A stretch of DNA of 64,000 bases, from NCBI GenBank assembly GCA_902781705.1, contig CACZKE010000013.1, forward strand, positions 1-64,000, in the 5' to 3' direction. The translations under genes were made by a program, and so were the position numbers. A model generated the notes under the pieces. The model saw only the letters and a program-made list of their open reading frames with translations, was not told the origin of the DNA and searched no databases. The number at the start of each line of letters is the position of its first letter. Positions within the stretch are counted from its first letter, which is position 1. Below are positions 15,963-26,516 of this stretch, in pieces. The DNA comes from an uncultured Bacteroidia bacterium (GTDB lineage Bacteria; Bacteroidota; Bacteroidia; Bacteroidales; UBA932).

Positions 15963-17089
15963 TCCACCGGCTCGTGCTGGCTACGCGCCACCTGTTTTTC
16001 GACAAGGGCTGGAAAAAGTCGTACAAGGCCGACGTCCCCACCGTCTGCGTGGGCAACATCACCGTGGGCGGCACCGGAAAGACCCCGCACACGGAGATGA
16101 TCCTGCGGCACCTCCTCCAGAGCGACGAATGGGCCTATTCCAACATCGCCGTCCTCTCCCGGGGGTACAAGCGCAAGTCCAAGGGCTTCCAGAAGGTGAG
16201 CCGCGAGGGAACGGCCCTCGAGTTCGGCGACGAACCGCTGCAGATCGCGAAGAAGTTCCCCTCCGTGACTGTCGCCGTGGACAAGGACCGGGTGGAAGGA
16301 TGCCGGTTCCTGACGCATCCGGAGGAACTCCAGACCTCCAAGAAGGCCCGGAAAACCCTGGACAAGGACATCCCCAAGGCCGATATCATCGTCCTGGACG
16401 ACGCGTTCCAGTACCGCCGCCTCCGGGCGGACGTGAACATCGTCCTCATCGACTATAACCGTCCCGTGCAGAAGGACCGCCTGATGCCCTGGGGCAAACT
16501 CCGCGACCTCCCTTCCCGCCTCAAGGCGGCCGACATCCTCATCGTCACCAAGTGCCCGACCTACCTCGACGAGTGGGAGAAGGGGAAATGGGCGGCCCAG
16601 CTGGGTCTCAAGGACTACAGCACCGCCACCTGCACCGGCGTGCGGAAGAACGGCCGGAAACAGACCGTCCTTTTCACCACCATCGGTTACGAGCCCATGG
16701 TTCCGGTCTTCCCCGAGGAGTGCGACAGCCGCTTCACCTACGCCCAGCGCCTCGTCCTGTTCACCGGCATCGCCAAGGATACGCCCCTCAGGGCCTATCT
16801 GTCAGACAATTACAAGATTGTGCACCGTTTCGGTTTCCCCGACCACCACAAGTATTCCAACGGGGATATCAAGAAGGTGTGCAAGGCCGTGTACGCCTAT
16901 CCCACCGCCTGCGTCGTCACGACGGAAAAGGACGCCCAGCGCGTCGTGGACACGAAAAAAGTACCCGGAACCCTGCGCGAACGCCTGTTCCAGGTACCGA
17001 TCAATGTCCAGTTCCTCTCCCCTGCCGAGGAGGAGATTTTCGTGACTACGCTTGAGGGCCTCTTGCGAGGACTTCGTTCTGAACCCTGA
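15959..17089 (+). CDS. lpxK: Tetraacyldisaccharide 4'-kinase
   Basis: LpxK is the inner-membrane kinase that adds the 4'-phosphate to the lipid A precursor. The ATG at 15959 overlaps the pfkA stop (ATGA), giving 376 residues starting [20 protein letters not shown]. The Walker A motif [10 protein letters not shown] and the [12 protein letters not shown] motif (DDGFQH in E. coli) are clear, as is the [22 protein letters not shown] segment. It lacks the extra N-terminal length of enterobacterial LpxK and has an extended C-terminal domain, as in other Bacteroidota. Its last 44 bases overlap the convergent DAHP synthase gene tail to tail. Confidence 0.93.
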
Positions 17090-18146
17090 CGGATTCCTCG
17101 TGAATCGCGTTGAAAACGTCCTCGATGAACTTCTCTGAAAGCCCGTATTTGCGGGCTTTTTCTTTCATGCCCGCGAGCACCTGGTCCCAGCGGCCCGTCT
17201 GGAGGATGGCCACGTTGTGGGTGCGCTTGTACTCGCCGATCTTCTCGCTCACGTTCATCCGGGAACCGAAGGTATAGAGGAGGTTCTCGTCGATGATGTC
17301 GATCTGGGCGCGGAGCTGGTCGATGCCCTCGCGGTAATCCTGGTCCACGGAGTCCTTCTCGCGGATCTGCAGGCTTTCCAGCAGGGTGAGCAGGTCCGGC
17401 GGCGTGAGTTGCTGCTTCGCATCGGAAAGGGCCACAGACGGGTTGCAGTGGGATTCGATCATGAGGCCCTCCAGACCCAGGTCCATCGCCTGCTGGGACA
17501 GTTCCAGCAGATATTTCCGGTCACCTCCCATGTGGGACGGGTCGGCGAAGAACGGGAGGTCCGGGTAGCGGGTCCTCAGTTCGATGGCGATCTGCCAGCC
17601 CGGGGCGTTGCGGTACTGCGTGTTCTCCATCGTGGAGAATCCGCGGTGGATGACGCCGAGTTTCCGCACGCCGGCGCGGTTCAGGCGCTCCAGCGCCCCG
17701 ATCCACAGGTCCAGGTCCGGATTGACCGGGTTCTTCACCAGCACCGGGATATCCGTATCCTGGAGCGCATCGGCCATCTCCTGCATGAGGAAGGGATTGG
17801 CACTGGAACGGGCGCCCACCCAGAGCATATCCACGCCGTACTTAAGGCACTCGTACACATGTTTTTCCGTGGCGACTTCGCAGCACACCTTCATGCCGGT
17901 CTCTTCCTTGACCTTCTTGAGCCATTTGAGGCCGGGCGTGCCCACGCCTTCGAAACTGCCCGGATGCGTCCGGGGTTTCCAGATGCCCGCCCGGAACACG
18001 TGGATGCCTCTTGCGGCGAGGTCCCGGGCCGTTTCCATCACCTGCTCCTCGCTTTCCGCGCTGCAGGGTCCCGCGATCACCATCGGCCGCGGAAGCGTAA
18101 AGAATTCCCATTCGCTGACAGGGACGATATCGAGTGTTCTTGCCAT
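17046..18146 (-). CDS. aroF: Bifunctional DAHP synthase / chorismate mutase
   Basis: The N-terminal about 265 residues are a type I-beta DAHP synthase, the first step of the shikimate pathway (PEP plus erythrose 4-phosphate): MVIAGPCSAES, GIHVFRAGIWKPRT, ADPSHMGGDR, ESHCNP. The C-terminal about 90 residues are an AroQ chorismate mutase (LRAQIDIIDENLLYTFGSRM, EKIGEYKR, E[10 protein letters not shown]). The mutase part may also sense chorismate or prephenate for feedback control, as in related fusions (inference). It is the last gene of the pheA operon, 36 bases after tyrA, with a dispersed repeat in that gap. Confidence 0.94.
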   Translation of the reverse strand: MARTLDIVPVSEWEFFTLPRPMVIAGPCSAESEEQVMETARDLAARGIHVFRAGIWKPRTHPGSFEGVGTPGLKWLKKVKEETGMKVCCEVATEKHVYECLKYGVDMLWVGARSSANPFLMQEMADALQDTDIPVLVKNPVNPDLDLWIGALERLNRAGVRKLGVIHRGFSTMENTQYRNAPGWQIAIELRTRYPDLPFFADPSHMGGDRKYLLELSQQAMDLGLEGLMIESHCNPSVALSDAKQQLTPPDLLTLLESLQIREKDSVDQDYREGIDQLRAQIDIIDENLLYTFGSRMNVSEKIGEYKRTHNVAILQTGRWDQVLAGMKEKARKYGLSEKFIEDVFNAIHEESVRVQNEVLARGPQA

Positions 18147-18157
18147 AATTATTCCTT

Positions 18158-18185
18158 TGTCATTTCGAGCTTGTCGAGAAATCTA
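18158..18185. repeat. Dispersed palindromic repeat at the tyrA stop codon
   Basis: The sequence GTCATTTCGAGCTTGTCGAG followed by AAATCT belongs to the same family as copies at 26687, 35563, 36228, 47792 and 59286. On the minus strand the repeat begins right at the tyrA TAG and fills the gap before the DAHP synthase start. Confidence 0.65.
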
Positions 18186-19040
18186 CCGGATGATCTTCCG
18201 GATCCGGTTCGCCTCCTCGATGAGTTCCCGGACCTTATCCTCATCGAAATTGTCGATCGCCTCCCGGAACTGCTGCATCTTTTCGATGTAGGTGTCCATC
18301 ACGTGGAGGACGTTCTCCCGGTTCTGGGTGAGGATCGGGACCCACATGTCCGCGCTGGATTTCGCCAGGCGCACGGTGGAGGAGAAACCGCCGGACGCGA
18401 GGTCGAAGATGTGCTTCTCGTCCTGCTCCTTGTCCAGGACGGTGAGGGCCAGTGCAAACGACGTAACGTGCGAAATATGGGACACATACGCCGTATGGAC
18501 ATCATGCTGGGAAGCATTCATGTAAATGGGCCGCATGCACAGCGCGTCGTAGAGTTCCTCGATGGTCTTCACCGCCTTCGGGGCCGATTCCTCGCTGTTC
18601 GCGAAGATGCAGGCCCGGCCGTCGAACAGGTTCGGCACAGCCGCCCAGGGGCCGCTGTATTCCGTTCCCGCCATCGGGTGCGTGGACACGAACTGCTTCC
18701 GGCAGGGATGGTAGTGCGTCGCCTGGCAGATCTGCTCCTTGGTCGAGCACACGTCGATGACGATCTTCTCCGCCAGAGCGTCCTGCTGGAAACGGTCCAG
18801 GATGTCACACACGGTCTTGACGGCCTCGCCCACAGGGATGGCGACGACGATGATGTCGGCCTGCGCGATGCAGTCCTCGTAAGAGACGACATCGTCCACA
18901 AGGCCGATCTTCTTCGCCACCGCGGCGTTCACCGGCTCCTTCTCCACGCCCAGCACCCTGGACGCGAACCCGCGCCGCTTGAGGTCGATCGCCATGGAAC
19001 CCCCGATGAGGCCCAGGCCTATGATTCCGATGGTTTTCAT
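18183..19040 (-). CDS. tyrA: Prephenate dehydrogenase
   Basis: It oxidises prephenate to 4-hydroxyphenylpyruvate for tyrosine synthesis. The 285-residue product has the Rossmann motif GLGLIGGSMA, a DVCSTKE segment, the substrate loop STHPMAGTEYSGP and the SHISHVTSFALA helix. No ACT domain follows, so allosteric control by tyrosine through such a domain is not evident. The ATG overlaps the aminotransferase stop (ATGA), a sign of translational coupling. The third gene of pheA-aminotransferase-tyrA-aroF. Confidence 0.94.
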   Translation of the reverse strand: MKTIGIIGLGLIGGSMAIDLKRRGFASRVLGVEKEPVNAAVAKKIGLVDDVVSYEDCIAQADIIVVAIPVGEAVKTVCDILDRFQQDALAEKIVIDVCSTKEQICQATHYHPCRKQFVSTHPMAGTEYSGPWAAVPNLFDGRACIFANSEESAPKAVKTIEELYDALCMRPIYMNASQHDVHTAYVSHISHVTSFALALTVLDKEQDEKHIFDLASGGFSSTVRLAKSSADMWVPILTQNRENVLHVMDTYIEKMQQFREAIDNFDEDKVRELIEEANRIRKIIR

Positions 19041-20269
19041 AATTGTAAAAACGCCTTCACCTTCTCCAGCGCCTTCTCCAACTTCGGAACCGGGGCGCAG
19101 AGGGAGATGCGGATATAGTCGTCACCGTTGTGGCCGAAAATGAAGCCCGGGGCCATGAACACGCCGGCACCGTAGAGGATGGCGTTCGAAACGGCCTCGC
19201 CGCGCGTCTTGCCGGATGCTTCCGCCTCACGCAGGATGACGGAGAGTTTGTCATTCCGGCTTTCGGCAGGCAACTTCCCGAACACGAACAGCCCGGCTCC
19301 GTTCGGATCATACTCGGCGCCGAGGGCGTCCATGATCTGCCCGGCCACTTTGGCACGGCGGAGGTACTCGGCGTTCAGGGTGGCGAACCACTCCGGACCG
19401 GCCTTGAGGGCCTCCACGGCCGCAAGTTGCAGGGGCTTGAACATGCCGGAATCCATCTGGGACTTCACCTTGAGGATCTCGCGGATGTAGTCGGCCTCGC
19501 CGCCCACCATGCCGATACGCCAGCCGGCCATGTTGTGGGCCTTCGAGAGGGAATTCATCTCCAGGCAGCACTCCTTGGCACCCGGGACGGCAAGCAGGGA
19601 CAGCGGATGCTCGTTACGGATGAAACTGTACGGGTTGTCATTGACGATGAGGATCCCATGGCGACGGCCGAAATCGGCGATCTTCGCGTAAAGTTCCTCC
19701 GTCGCACGGGCGCCCGTGGGCATACCCGGATAGTTGGTCCACATCATTTTCACGCCGGTGAGGTCCATCGCCTCCAGGGCGTCGAAATCCGGCACCCAGC
19801 CCTTTTCGGCCACGAGGTCGTACTTGATGACCTCCGCCTCCGCGATCTGGGAGGCCGACGTATAGGTGGGATAGCCCGGATCCGGGACCAGCACCTTATC
19901 GCCGGCGTTGAGGAAGGTGAGCGAAATCAGGAGGATACCCTCCTTGGAGCCCGTCAGGGGCTGGATTTCGGTCCCTGGATCCAGCGTCACGCCGTAATAG
20001 CGGGCGTACCAGTCGGAAAGGGCCTGGCGAAGTTCGGGAAGGCCCATGTAACTCTGGTAGCCATGGACACCGTCCAGTACGGCCGTCTTCGCGACGACCT
20101 CCAGGGCGGCCCGAGGCGGGGTTCCGTCGGGGGAACCGATCCCGAGGTTGATGATGGGGTCCTCCCCGCGGGCGGCGCGCTCCTGGTTGAGTTTGGCCAT
20201 TTCCCGGTTCTTGATGGAGAAGAAATACTCTTTGACGGACTCAGTCCTCTTGGCAGGTTGGATGATCAT
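19037..20269 (-). CDS. Class I/II aminotransferase of the aromatic operon
   Basis: This PLP enzyme probably transaminates aromatic keto acids, prephenate or aspartate in Phe/Tyr synthesis. The ATG at 20269 overlaps the pheA stop (ATGA), giving 410 residues; the 41 upstream codons lie inside pheA. The pyridoxal Lys sits in NSLSKAHNMAGWRIG; other fold I motifs are NLGIGSPDGTPP, VPDPGYPTY and NDNPYSF. The C-terminal domain holds an unusual stretch, LPAESRNDKLSVILREAEAS, that looks like an in-frame insertion of the dispersed repeat. Which amino acid is the natural substrate cannot be decided from sequence. Confidence 0.9.
   Translation of the reverse strand: MIIQPAKRTESVKEYFFSIKNREMAKLNQERAARGEDPIINLGIGSPDGTPPRAALEVVAKTAVLDGVHGYQSYMGLPELRQALSDWYARYYGVTLDPGTEIQPLTGSKEGILLISLTFLNAGDKVLVPDPGYPTYTSASQIAEAEVIKYDLVAEKGWVPDFDALEAMDLTGVKMMWTNYPGMPTGARATEELYAKIADFGRRHGILIVNDNPYSFIRNEHPLSLLAVPGAKECCLEMNSLSKAHNMAGWRIGMVGGEADYIREILKVKSQMDSGMFKPLQLAAVEALKAGPEWFATLNAEYLRRAKVAGQIMDALGAEYDPNGAGLFVFGKLPAESRNDKLSVILREAEASGKTRGEAVSNAILYGAGVFMAPGFIFGHNGDDYIRISLCAPVPKLEKALEKVKAFLQL
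19197..19271. repeat. Probable in-frame repeat insertion in the aminotransferase gene
   Basis: Read on the minus strand, the core GGAATGACA, a short spacer and GTCATCCTGCG with flanking GC-rich arms resembles the double-arm copy in rsmE (59286-59368). It encodes an extra Ser/Arg/Glu/Lys-rich stretch in the C-terminal domain. The match is weaker than in atpG or rsmE. Confidence 0.4.
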
Positions 20270-21093
20270 AAGGCTGCGTGATATTCGCCCAGGATGTCGA
20301 GGTCCTCCAGGAGCGGGCGTACTGCCGTGAGGGCCTGTTGGTAACGGAGATAATTGTCGAATTTGATGTCGGCATAGAAGAAGTACTGCCACTCCCTCCC
20401 GGGGATCGGAAGGGACTGGATTCGGGTCAGGTTCATATCGTAGAACGATAAAATCGTCAGAATGTGCGCCAGGGAACCGGGCTTGTGCGGCAAGGTGAAG
20501 CAGATGGAGGCCTTGTCGATGTCGTCCACGGCGACTTCGTACCCGTCGTCAAAGACCAGGAAGCGGGTGTAGTTCTGCTTGTACGTCTCGATACCGGGCG
20601 CCAGGATCTGAAGCCCGTAGAGTTCTGCGGCCAGGGTCGATGCCACCGCGCCTACACCCCGCAACTTCTTTTCCGCCACATCGGCCGCACTCTTGGCCGT
20701 GTCCTCGGATTCCACGAGATGGATCCAGGGAGCCTCCTTCTCGAAAAAGGTGCGCGTCTGGTTGATGGCCATGTAGTGTGTCCGCACTTCGCGGATGTCT
20801 TTCAGGGACTGTCCGGGCAGGGCCATCAGGTTCTGCTGGATACGCAGATACACCTCGCCCTTGACCTTCCGGTCATACTTGCGCAGGAGTTCGAAATTAT
20901 GGATGAGACCGCCCGAGAGCGTGTTTTCGATGGCCATGACAGCCGCATCGGCCATCCCGGCCCCGAGGGCCCGGTACAGGTCCTCGAACGTGTCGCACTC
21001 GACGATGGACGGGGATTCCTCGCCGGCGTAGAAAGACCGGGCGGCCTGCTCATGGAAGCAGCCCTTGTAGCCCTGTATCGCTATCCTTTTCAT
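20266..21093 (-). CDS. pheA: Prephenate dehydratase with ACT domain
   Basis: It converts prephenate to phenylpyruvate. Start at ATG 21093 gives 275 residues (MKRIAIQGYKGCFHEQAA). The catalytic domain shows the G-x-x-G-x-x-H-E-A motif, AVMAIENTLSGG and the YKQNYTRFLV motif, whose Thr-Arg-Phe is essential in the family. The C-terminal ACT domain (about 190-275) has CFTLPHKPGSLAHIL and a SLPIPGREWQY form of the ESRP-like Phe-binding site, so feedback by phenylalanine is likely. Unlike the E. coli P-protein it has no chorismate mutase part; that activity is fused to DAHP synthase at 17046. First gene of the operon, behind an attenuator. Confidence 0.94.
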   Translation of the reverse strand: MKRIAIQGYKGCFHEQAARSFYAGEESPSIVECDTFEDLYRALGAGMADAAVMAIENTLSGGLIHNFELLRKYDRKVKGEVYLRIQQNLMALPGQSLKDIREVRTHYMAINQTRTFFEKEAPWIHLVESEDTAKSAADVAEKKLRGVGAVASTLAAELYGLQILAPGIETYKQNYTRFLVFDDGYEVAVDDIDKASICFTLPHKPGSLAHILTILSFYDMNLTRIQSLPIPGREWQYFFYADIKFDNYLRYQQALTAVRPLLEDLDILGEYHAAL

Positions 21094-21105
21094 GGCGCGT
21101 TCATG

Positions 21106-21174
21106 AAAAAGGGCCATCCGCATTCCGGACAGCCCAACATAAATCTTCTATACCTATGATGATACAACGTCCGG
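21106..21174 (-). promoter_or_regulatory. pheA attenuator: terminator and alternative antiterminator stem
   Basis: On the minus strand, arm GGGCTGTCCG (21135-21126), loop GAATG and arm CGGATGGCCC (21120-21111) form a 10-bp stem with two G-U pairs. It is followed by TTTTT (21110-21106), an intrinsic terminator ending 12 bases before the pheA ATG. CCGGAC at 21174-21169, just after the leader peptide stop, can instead pair perfectly with GTCCGG at 21130-21125, taking away the terminator's 5' arm. This is the layout of ribosome-mediated attenuation. Stalling at Phe/Tyr codons would leave CCGGAC free; reading to the stop codon would cover it. Confidence 0.8.
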
Positions 21175-24177: not shown

Positions 24178-24939
24178 ATGGCTAATTTTCTGACCTCCTC
24201 CATCGGCAAGAAGTTCATCCAGAGCGTCAGCGGCGCTTTCCTGATCATCTTCCTGCTCCTGCACGGTACCATTAATTTCTTCTCCGTCATCGACTCCATG
24301 AAGGGTCAGTTCGGGAAGGTGGCTGAAGATGCCGTCCGTTTCTCCGAGGGCGACGGCTGGTTCCAGCTGGGCTGCGACTTCATGAGCACGCCGGTCATCG
24401 ACATCATGGTTCCGATCCTCGCGCTGGGATTCCTCATCCACATCATCTACGGCATCTGGCTCTCCGTGGAAAACTACACCAAGCGTGGCGGCATCAAGCG
24501 CTATGAGGTGGCGTCCAAGGCGAAGAACGACAGCTGGTCCGCGAAGAACATGTTCGTCCTGGGCATCATCGTCCTGGGCTTCATCGCGTTCCACCTGACC
24601 CATTTCTGGGCCAAGATGCAGCTCCGCGAGTTCATGGGCGGTGAGGCCGAGAACCCTTACTACCTGCTGATCACCACCTTCAAGAACTGGTGGGTCCTCG
24701 CCCTGTACATCGTGTGGTTCTTCTTCATCTGGCTGCACCTGAACCATGGTTTCTGGTCCATGTTCCAGACCATCGGCTGGAACAACAAGAAGTGGTTCAA
24801 ACGCCTGAAAGTCATCGGCATCATCGTGAGCACCTGCATCGTCCTCCTGTTCCTGTGCACCGCGGTCAACGCGTTCGTCGAGGCGAACTTCGTGACGGCT
24901 TCCCATCAGTGGACGGCGCCCCTTCTTGCAAAATTTTAA
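24178..24939 (+). CDS. sdhC: Succinate dehydrogenase/fumarate reductase cytochrome b subunit
   Basis: This is the b558-type membrane anchor that holds haems and passes electrons between quinones and the flavoprotein. The 253 residues form five hydrophobic segments. Conserved His residues occur in LLLHGTINF, FLIHIIYG, FHLTHFW and WLHLNHGFW, the haem-ligand pattern of this family. In Bacteroidota this gene is normally followed directly by sdhA and sdhB (frdA, frdB). Here the next unit is the trp leader and trpB, so the gene is an orphan in this window. Confidence 0.9.
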   Translation: MANFLTSSIGKKFIQSVSGAFLIIFLLLHGTINFFSVIDSMKGQFGKVAEDAVRFSEGDGWFQLGCDFMSTPVIDIMVPILALGFLIHIIYGIWLSVENYTKRGGIKRYEVASKAKNDSWSAKNMFVLGIIVLGFIAFHLTHFWAKMQLREFMGGEAENPYYLLITTFKNWWVLALYIVWFFFIWLHLNHGFWSMFQTIGWNNKKWFKRLKVIGIIVSTCIVLLFLCTAVNAFVEANFVTASHQWTAPLLAKF

Positions 24940-24947
24940 AAAATTTC

Positions 24948-24978
24948 TTGCAATTTAGATTTATTCTCTACATCTTTG
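24948..24978 (+). promoter_or_regulatory. trpB leader promoter
   Basis: TTG at 24948-24950, 20 bases, then CATCTTTG at 24971-24978 (one base off TAnnTTTG). The leader ATG is 8 bases after the box, giving a very short untranslated stretch. Confidence 0.6.
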
Positions 24979-24985
24979 CAACAAG

Positions 24986-25042
24986 ATGAGAACAATGATG
25001 GTCAACAACTTCTGGTGGCGCACTTGCAATTCCGCATTGTAA
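24986..25042 (+). CDS. trpL: Trp leader peptide
   Basis: An 18-codon frame, MRTMMVNNFWWRTCNSAL, has tandem Trp codons at positions 10-11 (25013-25018) and ends in TAA at 25040. It lies between a promoter and a perfect terminator upstream of trpB, as in classical trp operon attenuators. A ribosome stalled at the Trp codons would cover the first arm of the protector hairpin, while one reaching the stop would cover the second. The product has no expected function of its own. Confidence 0.88.
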   Translation: MRTMMVNNFWWRTCNSAL

Positions 25043-25112
25043 GTCGCATCGCCATAGGTATAGGAGACCATGAAAAGATAAAGGCGCGCTGACTTACAGC
25101 GCGCCTTTTTTT
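25022..25112 (+). terminator. trp attenuator: protector, antiterminator and terminator stems
   Basis: Three mutually exclusive pairings are visible. Protector: ACTTGCAAT (25022-25030) with ATTGTAAGT (25036-25044), 9 bp with one G-U. Antiterminator: TGTAAGTC (25038-25045) with GACTTACA (25091-25098), 8 bp perfect. Terminator: GGCGCGCTG (25083-25091) with CAGCGCGCC (25097-25105), loop ACTTA, then seven Ts (25106-25112). The antiterminator takes the terminator's loop and neighbouring bases. This is a complete leader-peptide attenuator. Confidence 0.88.
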
Positions 25113-25151
25113 GTGCAGAAATCAATTGTCAAATACTTAACAAATAACACC

Positions 25152-26516
25152 ATGAGACAGAAAAAGTACCTGCTCCCGGAATCTGAGATTCCGACCCATT
25201 TCTTCAACATCCAGGCGGTCATGCCCAACAAGCCCCTGCCGTTCCTGAATCCGGCCACCAAGGAGCCCCTGAAGCCCGAAGACCTGTATCCCGTCTTCGT
25301 GGAGGAGTGCGCCCGCCAGGAACTCAACCAGACGGACGAGTGGATTCCCATCCCGGAGGCCGTCCGTGAGCAGTACGCCGCCTACCGCTGCACCCCGCTC
25401 GTGCGTGCCTATGAACTGGAGGAGGCCCTCGGCACCCCGGCCCACATCTATTTCAAGAACGAGTCCGTCTCGCCCGCCGGCAGCCACAAGCTGAACTCCG
25501 CCCTGGCCCAGGCCTACTATGCCAAGCAGCAGGGAATCACCAACATCACCACCGAGACCGGCGCCGGCCAGTGGGGCGGTGCCCTGAGCTACGCGGCCAA
25601 GAAGTTCGGCCTGGAATGCGCCGTCTATATGGTGAAGGTGAGCTACAACCAGAAGCCCTACCGCCGGAGCATCATGCAGACCTTCGGCGCGGCCATCACC
25701 CCTTCCCCGTCCATGTCCACCCGTGCCGGTAAGGATATCCTCACCGTGAATCCCAACGACCAGGGCTCCCTGGGCAGCGCCATTTCCGAGGCGATCGAAC
25801 TGGCCGTCACCACGCCCAACTGCAAGTACACCCTGGGGTCCGTGCTCAACCACGTGTGCCTGCACCAGACCGTCATCGGCCTGGAAGCCGAGAAGCAGAT
25901 GGAACTTGCCGGCGAGTATCCGGACATCGTGATTGCCTGCTTCGGCGGCGGCTCCAACTTCTCCGGCATCGCCTACCCGTTCATGCGGCACAACATCCGG
26001 GACGGCAAGAAGACCCGCTTCATCGCCGCCGAGCCGGCCAGCTGCCCCAAGCTGACCCGCGGCAAGTTCGAGTATGACTTCGGCGACGAGGCCGGCATGA
26101 CCCCGCTCCTTCCCATGTACACGCTGGGTCACACCTTCAAGCCCGCGACCATCCATGCCGGCGGACTCCGCTACCACGGGGCCGGCGTCATCATGTCCCA
26201 GCTCATGAAGGACGGCTTCATGGAGGCCATCGACCTGGACCAGACCGAGACCTTCAAGGCCGGCATCCTTTTCGCCCAGACCGAGGGCATCATCCCGGCT
26301 CCGGAGTCCTGCCACGCCATCGCCGCCACCATCCGGGAGGCCCTGAAGTGCAAGGAGACCGGCGAGCAGAAGACCATCCTCTTCAACCTGTCCGGCCACG
26401 GCTTCGTGGACATGGCCGCCTACGACCAGTACATCTCCGGCGAGCTGCAGGACTACCACCTGAGCGACGAGGAACTTGCCAAGTATATCAAGAGTGCCGA
26501 TGTGCTGAATCAGTAA
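25152..26516 (+). CDS. trpB: Tryptophan synthase beta chain, TrpB2 type
   Basis: It joins indole and serine to give tryptophan with PLP. The 454-residue protein is longer than ordinary TrpB (about 400) and has the TrpB2 features: RCTPLVRAYELEEALG, SPAGSHKLNSALAQAYY with the PLP Lys, TETGAGQWGGALSYAA and the phosphate-binding GGGSNFSG. TrpB2 proteins often work without TrpA, as an indole-salvaging enzyme. No trpA or other trp gene is near. The start at 25152 follows the attenuator; the open frame further upstream would begin at the terminator's T-run and is rejected. Confidence 0.94.
   Translation: MRQKKYLLPESEIPTHFFNIQAVMPNKPLPFLNPATKEPLKPEDLYPVFVEECARQELNQTDEWIPIPEAVREQYAAYRCTPLVRAYELEEALGTPAHIYFKNESVSPAGSHKLNSALAQAYYAKQQGITNITTETGAGQWGGALSYAAKKFGLECAVYMVKVSYNQKPYRRSIMQTFGAAITPSPSMSTRAGKDILTVNPNDQGSLGSAISEAIELAVTTPNCKYTLGSVLNHVCLHQTVIGLEAEKQMELAGEYPDIVIACFGGGSNFSGIAYPFMRHNIRDGKKTRFIAAEPASCPKLTRGKFEYDFGDEAGMTPLLPMYTLGHTFKPATIHAGGLRYHGAGVIMSQLMKDGFMEAIDLDQTETFKAGILFAQTEGIIPAPESCHAIAATIREALKCKETGEQKTILFNLSGHGFVDMAAYDQYISGELQDYHLSDEELAKYIKSADVLNQ

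Follow-up and report, generated by a model that had tools for sequence, protein, structure and literature searches.

A putative tryptophan attenuator in front of a stand-alone trpB2 in gut Bacteroidales

Introduction

In trpL, the tryptophan attenuator of the E. coli trp operon, a leader open reading frame (ORF) with tandem UGG codons is combined with mutually exclusive protector, antiterminator, and terminator helices, and the target is trpE-A. The role of TrpB2 when it stands alone has been debated. Trp attenuators have also been predicted in Actinobacteria, including one before trpB2A of Corynebacterium diphtheriae. In the accessible text of that study, leaders with Trp codons precede trp genes, one operon has trpB2 first, and the C. 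diphtheriae trpB2 lies together with trpA in an operon that is called biosynthetic (PMC1262725). For Flavobacterium psychrophilum, a 2021 study reported strong indications that leader peptides attenuate operons for amino-acid biosynthesis; the portion of the article that is available does not mention tryptophan or trp (PMC9723704). Tryptophan salvage is regulated in Chlamydia trachomatis as well, where trpRBA includes trpA and is controlled by the proteins TrpR and YtgR, according to the accessible parts of two reports (PMC7755916, PMC6504234). Finally, a Bacteroides thetaiotaomicron protein that is 59% identical to the TrpB2 of Thermotoga benefited a trpA mutant of E. coli only beside a wild-type strain, which the authors read, in the available text, as use of cross-fed indole (PMC11535334). 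Our literature search, which covered few subscription papers and is not proof of absence, found no Trp attenuator before a stand-alone trpB2 and no recognised Trp leaders from Bacteroidales.

Here we describe a leader at positions 24948-25112 of a 64,000-nucleotide stretch of DNA ("the window") from an uncultured member of the Bacteroidales. Like E. coli trpL, it has a leader ORF with tandem UGG codons and mutually exclusive helices. One computation also gives the two the same order of folding energies across ribosome positions, but for the window the energy does not exceed that of shuffles. Unlike trpL, the leader precedes a trpB2 that stands alone, matches to trpA, trpC, trpD, and trpE being absent from the genome, it has no Rfam match, and its predicted 5' UTR is only about 4 nt long.

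Results

A single trpB2 in a genome with no match to trpA, trpC, trpD, or trpE

The product of the gene behind the leader scored 695.6 bits against NF009057 (cut-off 366) and 598.9 bits against TIGR01415 (cut-off 518.85). Against the trpB model TIGR00263 it scored just 154.4, under the cut-off of 392.45. The best solved relatives (6hul, 4qys, and 6hte) also point to TrpB2. A genome search found one copy of trpB2, and profile searches of the genome (43 contigs, 98.97% complete) found no match at E <= 0.001 for trpA, trpC, trpD, or trpE. As a control, each of these families was matched in 14 of 14 control genomes. The first-pass annotation had called this a lone TrpB2, and it was right to; the genome search that it proposed, for a second trpB with trpA, turned up neither. 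We also found no match for tryptophanase (TIGR02617) in this genome, while 7 of 50 genomes had matches, none of them over the cut-off.

About 4 kb from trpB2 lies an apparent cluster for phenylalanine and tyrosine biosynthesis. It includes an aminotransferase, identified by profile; a prephenate dehydratase-like protein, with scores below the cut-offs; and a prephenate dehydrogenase and a DAHP synthase/chorismate mutase, which we read from the ORFs by eye. Given this cluster and the absence of trpA, trpC, trpD, and trpE, the cell probably makes chorismate and is missing the Trp branch. TrpB2 could make tryptophan from indole without TrpA, a reaction for which a B. thetaiotaomicron homologue has been reported (PMC11535334). 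Its substrates would be serine or a serine derivative and indole, which other microbes nearby probably supply, and the cell itself would have no de novo pathway for tryptophan.

Directly upstream of the leader is a gene (24178-24939) for a b558-type cytochrome b of succinate dehydrogenase/fumarate reductase (sdhC-like). Our scan found no terminator of its own, and we read no neighbour after it as subunit A or B.

Table 1. Features of the trpB2 locus, with positions in the window.
Feature	Position	Strand	Details	Basis
Predicted sigma-ABfr promoter	24948..24978	+	TTG 24948-24950 (-33 region); CATCTTTG 24971-24978 (-7 box)	
Leader ORF	24986..25042	+	MRTMMVNNFWWRTCNSAL; stop UAA 25040-25042	sequence; WW leader in relatives
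Tandem Trp codons	25013..25018	+	UGG UGG	sequence
Protector hairpin (1:2)	25022-25030 with 25036-25044	+	9 pairs, one G-U	folding, covariation
Antiterminator segment 2	25038..25045	+	contains the stop codon; 8 pairs with segment 3; possible extension 25050-25053	
Antiterminator segment 3	25091..25098	+	inside the terminator hairpin; possible extension 25083-25086	
Intrinsic terminator (3:4)	25080..25112	+	25080-25091 with 25097-25108, 12 bp, loop ACTTA; seven Ts 25106-25112	covariation
trpB2 (TrpB-like PLP enzyme)	25152..26516	+		profile search; best solved relatives
Apparent Phe/Tyr biosynthesis cluster	17046-21123	-	about 4 kb from trpB2	profiles, ORF reading

Anatomy of the leader

According to the first-pass annotation, a leader ORF encoding Trp-Trp is joined by a protector of 9 bp, an antiterminator of 8 bp, and a terminator, these helices being mutually exclusive; we found every one of these parts in the sequence (Table 1). 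The one correction concerns the terminator: its seven Ts are there, but we count 12 pairs instead of 9, the 9 being the G+C-rich part. The 1:2, 2:3, and 3:4 helices exclude each other because their sequences overlap, and the terminator lies 40 nt before the start of trpB2. The leader RNA folds with z = -6.2 (none of 200 shuffles was as stable), and most of this value comes from the two hairpins.

We interpret this element as a ribosome-mediated transcription attenuator that makes expression of trpB2 depend on charged tRNA-Trp, with a probability of roughly 85%. If the cell had enough tryptophan, the ribosome would reach and cover the UAA in segment 2, the 3:4 terminator would form, and transcription would end before trpB2. 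If tryptophan were low, the ribosome would stall at UGG UGG and the protector would be broken, leaving segment 2 to pair with segment 3; this pairing would block the terminator, and trpB2 would be transcribed. Without translation, the protector would keep segment 2, which should lead to termination.

A structured leader with an intrinsic terminator could also be a T-box, a riboswitch, or a TRAP-type element that senses tryptophan. We consider this extremely improbable, as no Rfam family matched at its gathering score, either in the window or over the attenuators of 13 related loci, and the form of the leader, tandem Trp codons included, is that of a coding one.

Conservation of the leader

We compared the window to its best 80 relatives (of at least 594). 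These are mostly metagenome-assembled genomes (MAGs) from ruminant and other gut samples, with labels such as Bacteroidales, Bacteroidaceae, Prevotellaceae, and similar. One locus (L046) has no upstream sequence and was excluded from the attenuator counts, which leaves 79. In 49 of these 79 usable relatives, from the best 80 of at least 594, trpB2 is preceded by an ORF of under 50 codons with two or three adjacent Trp codons (WW or WWW) and then by a hairpin with a T-rich tail. Counting the window, two Trp codons are adjacent in 31 cases and three in 19. The first-pass annotation had raised the loss of the Trp codons in close relatives as a point against attenuation. In a tree of TrpB2 proteins (built by a quick method), the window falls within a clade of 50 rows, and 44 of the 49 members that could be assessed have kept the leader and its codons. 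The five without it are L011, L022, L038, L039, and L047.

Apart from the Trp residues, the leader peptides of the relatives differ at most positions. This bears on the idea that the leader acts chiefly on translation, or that its peptide acts in trans, with termination being secondary. A trans role has been published for the trp leader peptide of another phylum (peTrpL of Sinorhizobium meliloti; PMC7298713, accessible text). Given the divergent peptides, and a terminator with a seven-T tail just upstream of the gene, we view such a role as quite unlikely here.

Five loci (L022, L038, L039, L067, and L075) have, by our own reading, a hairpin and a T-run before trpB2 and no WW leader. Perhaps they lost the attenuator and retained the terminator as an insulator of the upstream gene. 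This would fit with another explanation for the window, in which the hairpin is mainly a terminator or insulator for the sdhC-like gene and the WW ORF is incidental. Within 24600-25400, the hairpin is the only + strand terminator that our scan found after that gene, which ends at 24939. If the WW ORF were incidental, however, we would not expect to find it with an alternative pairing partner in 49 of the 79 usable relatives (best 80 of at least 594). The covariation of the protector and a well-placed predicted promoter just before the leader ORF (both described below) also argue against this explanation, as does the location of pattern hits: when we scanned both strands of the 80 related loci (together 1,648,448 bases) for ATG, TGGTGG, a stop codon, and a terminator-like hairpin, all 36 hits, at 28 loci, were upstream of trpB2. 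(WWW leaders count twice.) Overall, the insulator explanation seems unlikely, if a little less so than an effect on translation or in trans. The hairpin may still have a second role as an insulator within the attenuator that we favor.

With a laxer rule for the hairpin, there were 47 hits in the 80 loci, of which 39 were upstream of trpB2 and 8 were elsewhere. We also searched for the class-A pattern ("class" refers to our own sorting of the attenuators into four structural classes) in 299 genomes of the family. This search required an exact pattern and therefore undercounts; it gave 17 matches, 14 of them preceding trpB2. The matches in G157, G162, and G248 are not before trpB2, and we take them to be chance.

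Within the window's own genome (G000), a pattern that runs from TGGTGG to T6, and which covers only sites where 68-98 nt separate the Trp codons from a run of six Ts, found the window's site again and 9 other places. The other places that we checked are L185, L189, L193, L197, L201, L173, L175, and L179; L177 is the L175 site, one base on. The only other place with both an ATG and a hairpin is at position 62987 of contig C14, where it overlaps the end of what we read as an integrase-like ORF, and we rejected this candidate as chance.

Tests of the pairings

To examine covariation, we used an alignment (A1) of 25 class-A leaders. The 30 class-A loci were reduced to these 25 by omission of L012 and of L016, L017, L021, and L028, the latter four having different leaders and hairpins. 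The terminator has 38 doubly changed cells, as compared to 14.8 ± 3.0 in shuffled data, and the protector has 5, as compared to 0.8 ± 0.8. For both helices, 0 of 500 shuffles were as high, but these counts come from related rows and should not be taken as probabilities. The antiterminator showed no excess among these 25 leaders: its core is 98.5% paired and nearly invariant. Of the three stems whose covariance the first-pass annotation suggested analyzing, two covary and the antiterminator shows no excess. A nearly invariant core would be expected if segment 2 has to match segments 1 and 3 alike and also contains the stop codon, but such invariance does not prove the pairing. As for the possible extension of the antiterminator, its innermost pair is present in only 5 of the 25 sequences.

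The antiterminator does differ between classes. Across 50 loci, each locus's own segments fit better than swapped ones, both for 2:3 and for 1:2 (P = 0.0002 each, permutation test; these P values ignore the relatedness of the loci). When the classes were taken one at a time, class D alone gave a significant swap test for 2:3 (P = 0.0006), and class A alone did so for 1:2 (P = 0.0002).

Effect of ribosome position on folding

We modeled four states of the ribosome: with its A site on the first Trp codon, with its A site on the second, at the stop codon, or absent. For each state, we computed the interaction of the terminator's arm and loop with the upstream RNA, with the RNA cut at the loop and with an assumed ribosome footprint. 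For these four states, in that order, the median interaction across the 50 loci is -7.4, -7.0, -2.1, and -1.3 kcal/mol. The values are -7.4, -6.6, -1.6, and -0.1 kcal/mol for the window and -8.6, -10.1, 0.0, and -0.7 kcal/mol for the E. coli trpL control. The stalled state is stronger than the stop state by at least 2 kcal in 37 of the 50 loci, and the reverse occurs in none.

The antiterminator energy of the window is not better than that of shuffled upstream segments (P = 0.24); 11 of the 50 loci have P <= 0.05. With an alternate measure that uses pairing probabilities, the stalled and stop states are strictly separated in only 6 of the 50 loci. We prefer the energy measure because the pairing probabilities count weak pairings that a terminator would displace.

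A predicted promoter just before the leader ORF

The -7 box of the window matches TAnnTTTG at 5 of 6 positions, and transcription is predicted to start near 24982. We required at least 5 of 6 matches to this consensus, which we took from the accessible text of a study of B. thetaiotaomicron that reports a box centred at -7 and 5' UTRs of under 10 nt for about 3.7% of cases (PMC7366714). In 32 of the 50 attenuators, the distance from the end of such a box to the first in-frame ATG is 5-8 nt, and in 29 of these it is 7 or 8 nt; the rate further upstream would lead us to expect about 5 such attenuators. Of these 32, 31 also have TTG 22-23 nt upstream of the box. In 18 of the 32, no Met besides the first precedes the Trp codons; the window, with three Met, is not among these 18. 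The positions of the boxes suggest that the leader mRNA is near-leaderless in these 32 attenuators, including the window's, with a predicted 5' UTR of about 4 nt. Every class C and class E locus is among the other 18 of the 50, and in these classes the best box is mostly 19-32 nt from the ATG.

Similarity to the leaders of trp operons

We examined 20 stretches around trpA in relatives (L118-L137). In 14 of them, there is a WW or WWW leader with a TrpB-like start no more than 300 nt behind it; we take this start to be marked by the GEFGG motif. (Examples are L119:6641, L128:6701, and L129:9615.) These operons are trpB-first. A similar operon leader, without the check for the TrpB start, is present at L123, and five further stretches have no accepted leader.

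The class E attenuators of trpB2 align to the operon leaders over nearly their full length, with 97-101 identical of 110-117 positions, and those of class C have 36-53 identities over 40-63 positions; both are above the highest shuffle. Two class-A sequences were tried beside the window: L016 is identical to operon leaders at 33 of 34 positions (score 49, where shuffles reach at most 23), and L001 is borderline (28, where they reach 26). The window's leader has no similarity above shuffles (24 versus 25), which makes descent from an operon attenuator an inference in its case. Likely, attenuators passed repeatedly between the trp operon and trpB2, by transfer or duplication, and the operon was lost in the window's lineage.

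In the genomes of the best 80 relatives (of at least 594), trpA scored over its cut-off in 26 (7 of 50 and 19 of 30), and trpC was found in 10 of 50 genomes examined, all of which also have trpA; the completeness of these genomes is not given, so the absence of a single gene may be a gap. trpA is absent from 42 of the 50 genomes with the attenuator, versus 12 of 30 without it. As the other 8 of the 50 do have trpA, the attenuator is not tied to loss of the pathway. Both traits follow clades, and a test with independent pairs gave a median P of 1, so we make no causal claim about the attenuator and the loss of trpA.

One genome in the window's TrpB2 clade (G011, with loci L011 and L123) has trpA and no WW leader before trpB2. 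This 3.7 Mb MAG may be mixed, or the operon may have been regained.

Discussion

On the sequence evidence, the best reading of this locus appears to be that a gut Bacteroidales bacterium auxotrophic for tryptophan controls an enzyme of indole salvage by ribosome-mediated attenuation. The first-pass annotation had tied TrpB2 to tryptophan starvation, and the anatomy and conservation of the leader support this link. Read-through would be what responds to tryptophan. The link is compatible with indole salvage, as such regulation is what we would expect of a salvage gene in a genome without trpA, trpC, trpD, and trpE, so the indole-salvage reading is not displaced.

The mechanism is classical. What appears to be new, given the literature that we searched, is its target, a gene of an auxotroph; its occurrence in the order Bacteroidales; and a leader that is probably near-leaderless. 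C. diphtheriae and C. trachomatis both have trpA, in contrast to the window's genome, and the parallel to C. trachomatis is one of logic only. The host shares its phylum, and probably leader-peptide attenuation, with F. psychrophilum, whose reported targets are biosynthetic operons rather than a salvage gene. Also close are the WW or WWW leaders of Bacteroidales trp operons, to which the attenuators of classes C and E align; these precede complete operons, and most have a longer gap from the -7 box to the ATG. A broader scenario is that auxotrophic Bacteroidales kept the lost pathway's kind of attenuator on an indole-salvage enzyme, that stalling on a near-leaderless mRNA senses tryptophan via initiation at the extreme 5' end, and that leaders moved between the trp operon and trpB2 more than once. 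We see this combination as an even bet.

A probable attenuator with Trp codons, on the sole trp gene that turned up in the genome, would tell us which signal the cell links to TrpB2. Trp leaders are now documented in Bacteroidales, both before lone trpB2 genes and before full trp operons, and the former offer a natural case of leader-peptide control on an mRNA that is probably near-leaderless. More broadly, the idea that indole salvage is a response to tryptophan starvation becomes directly testable in Bacteroidales of the rumen and gut.
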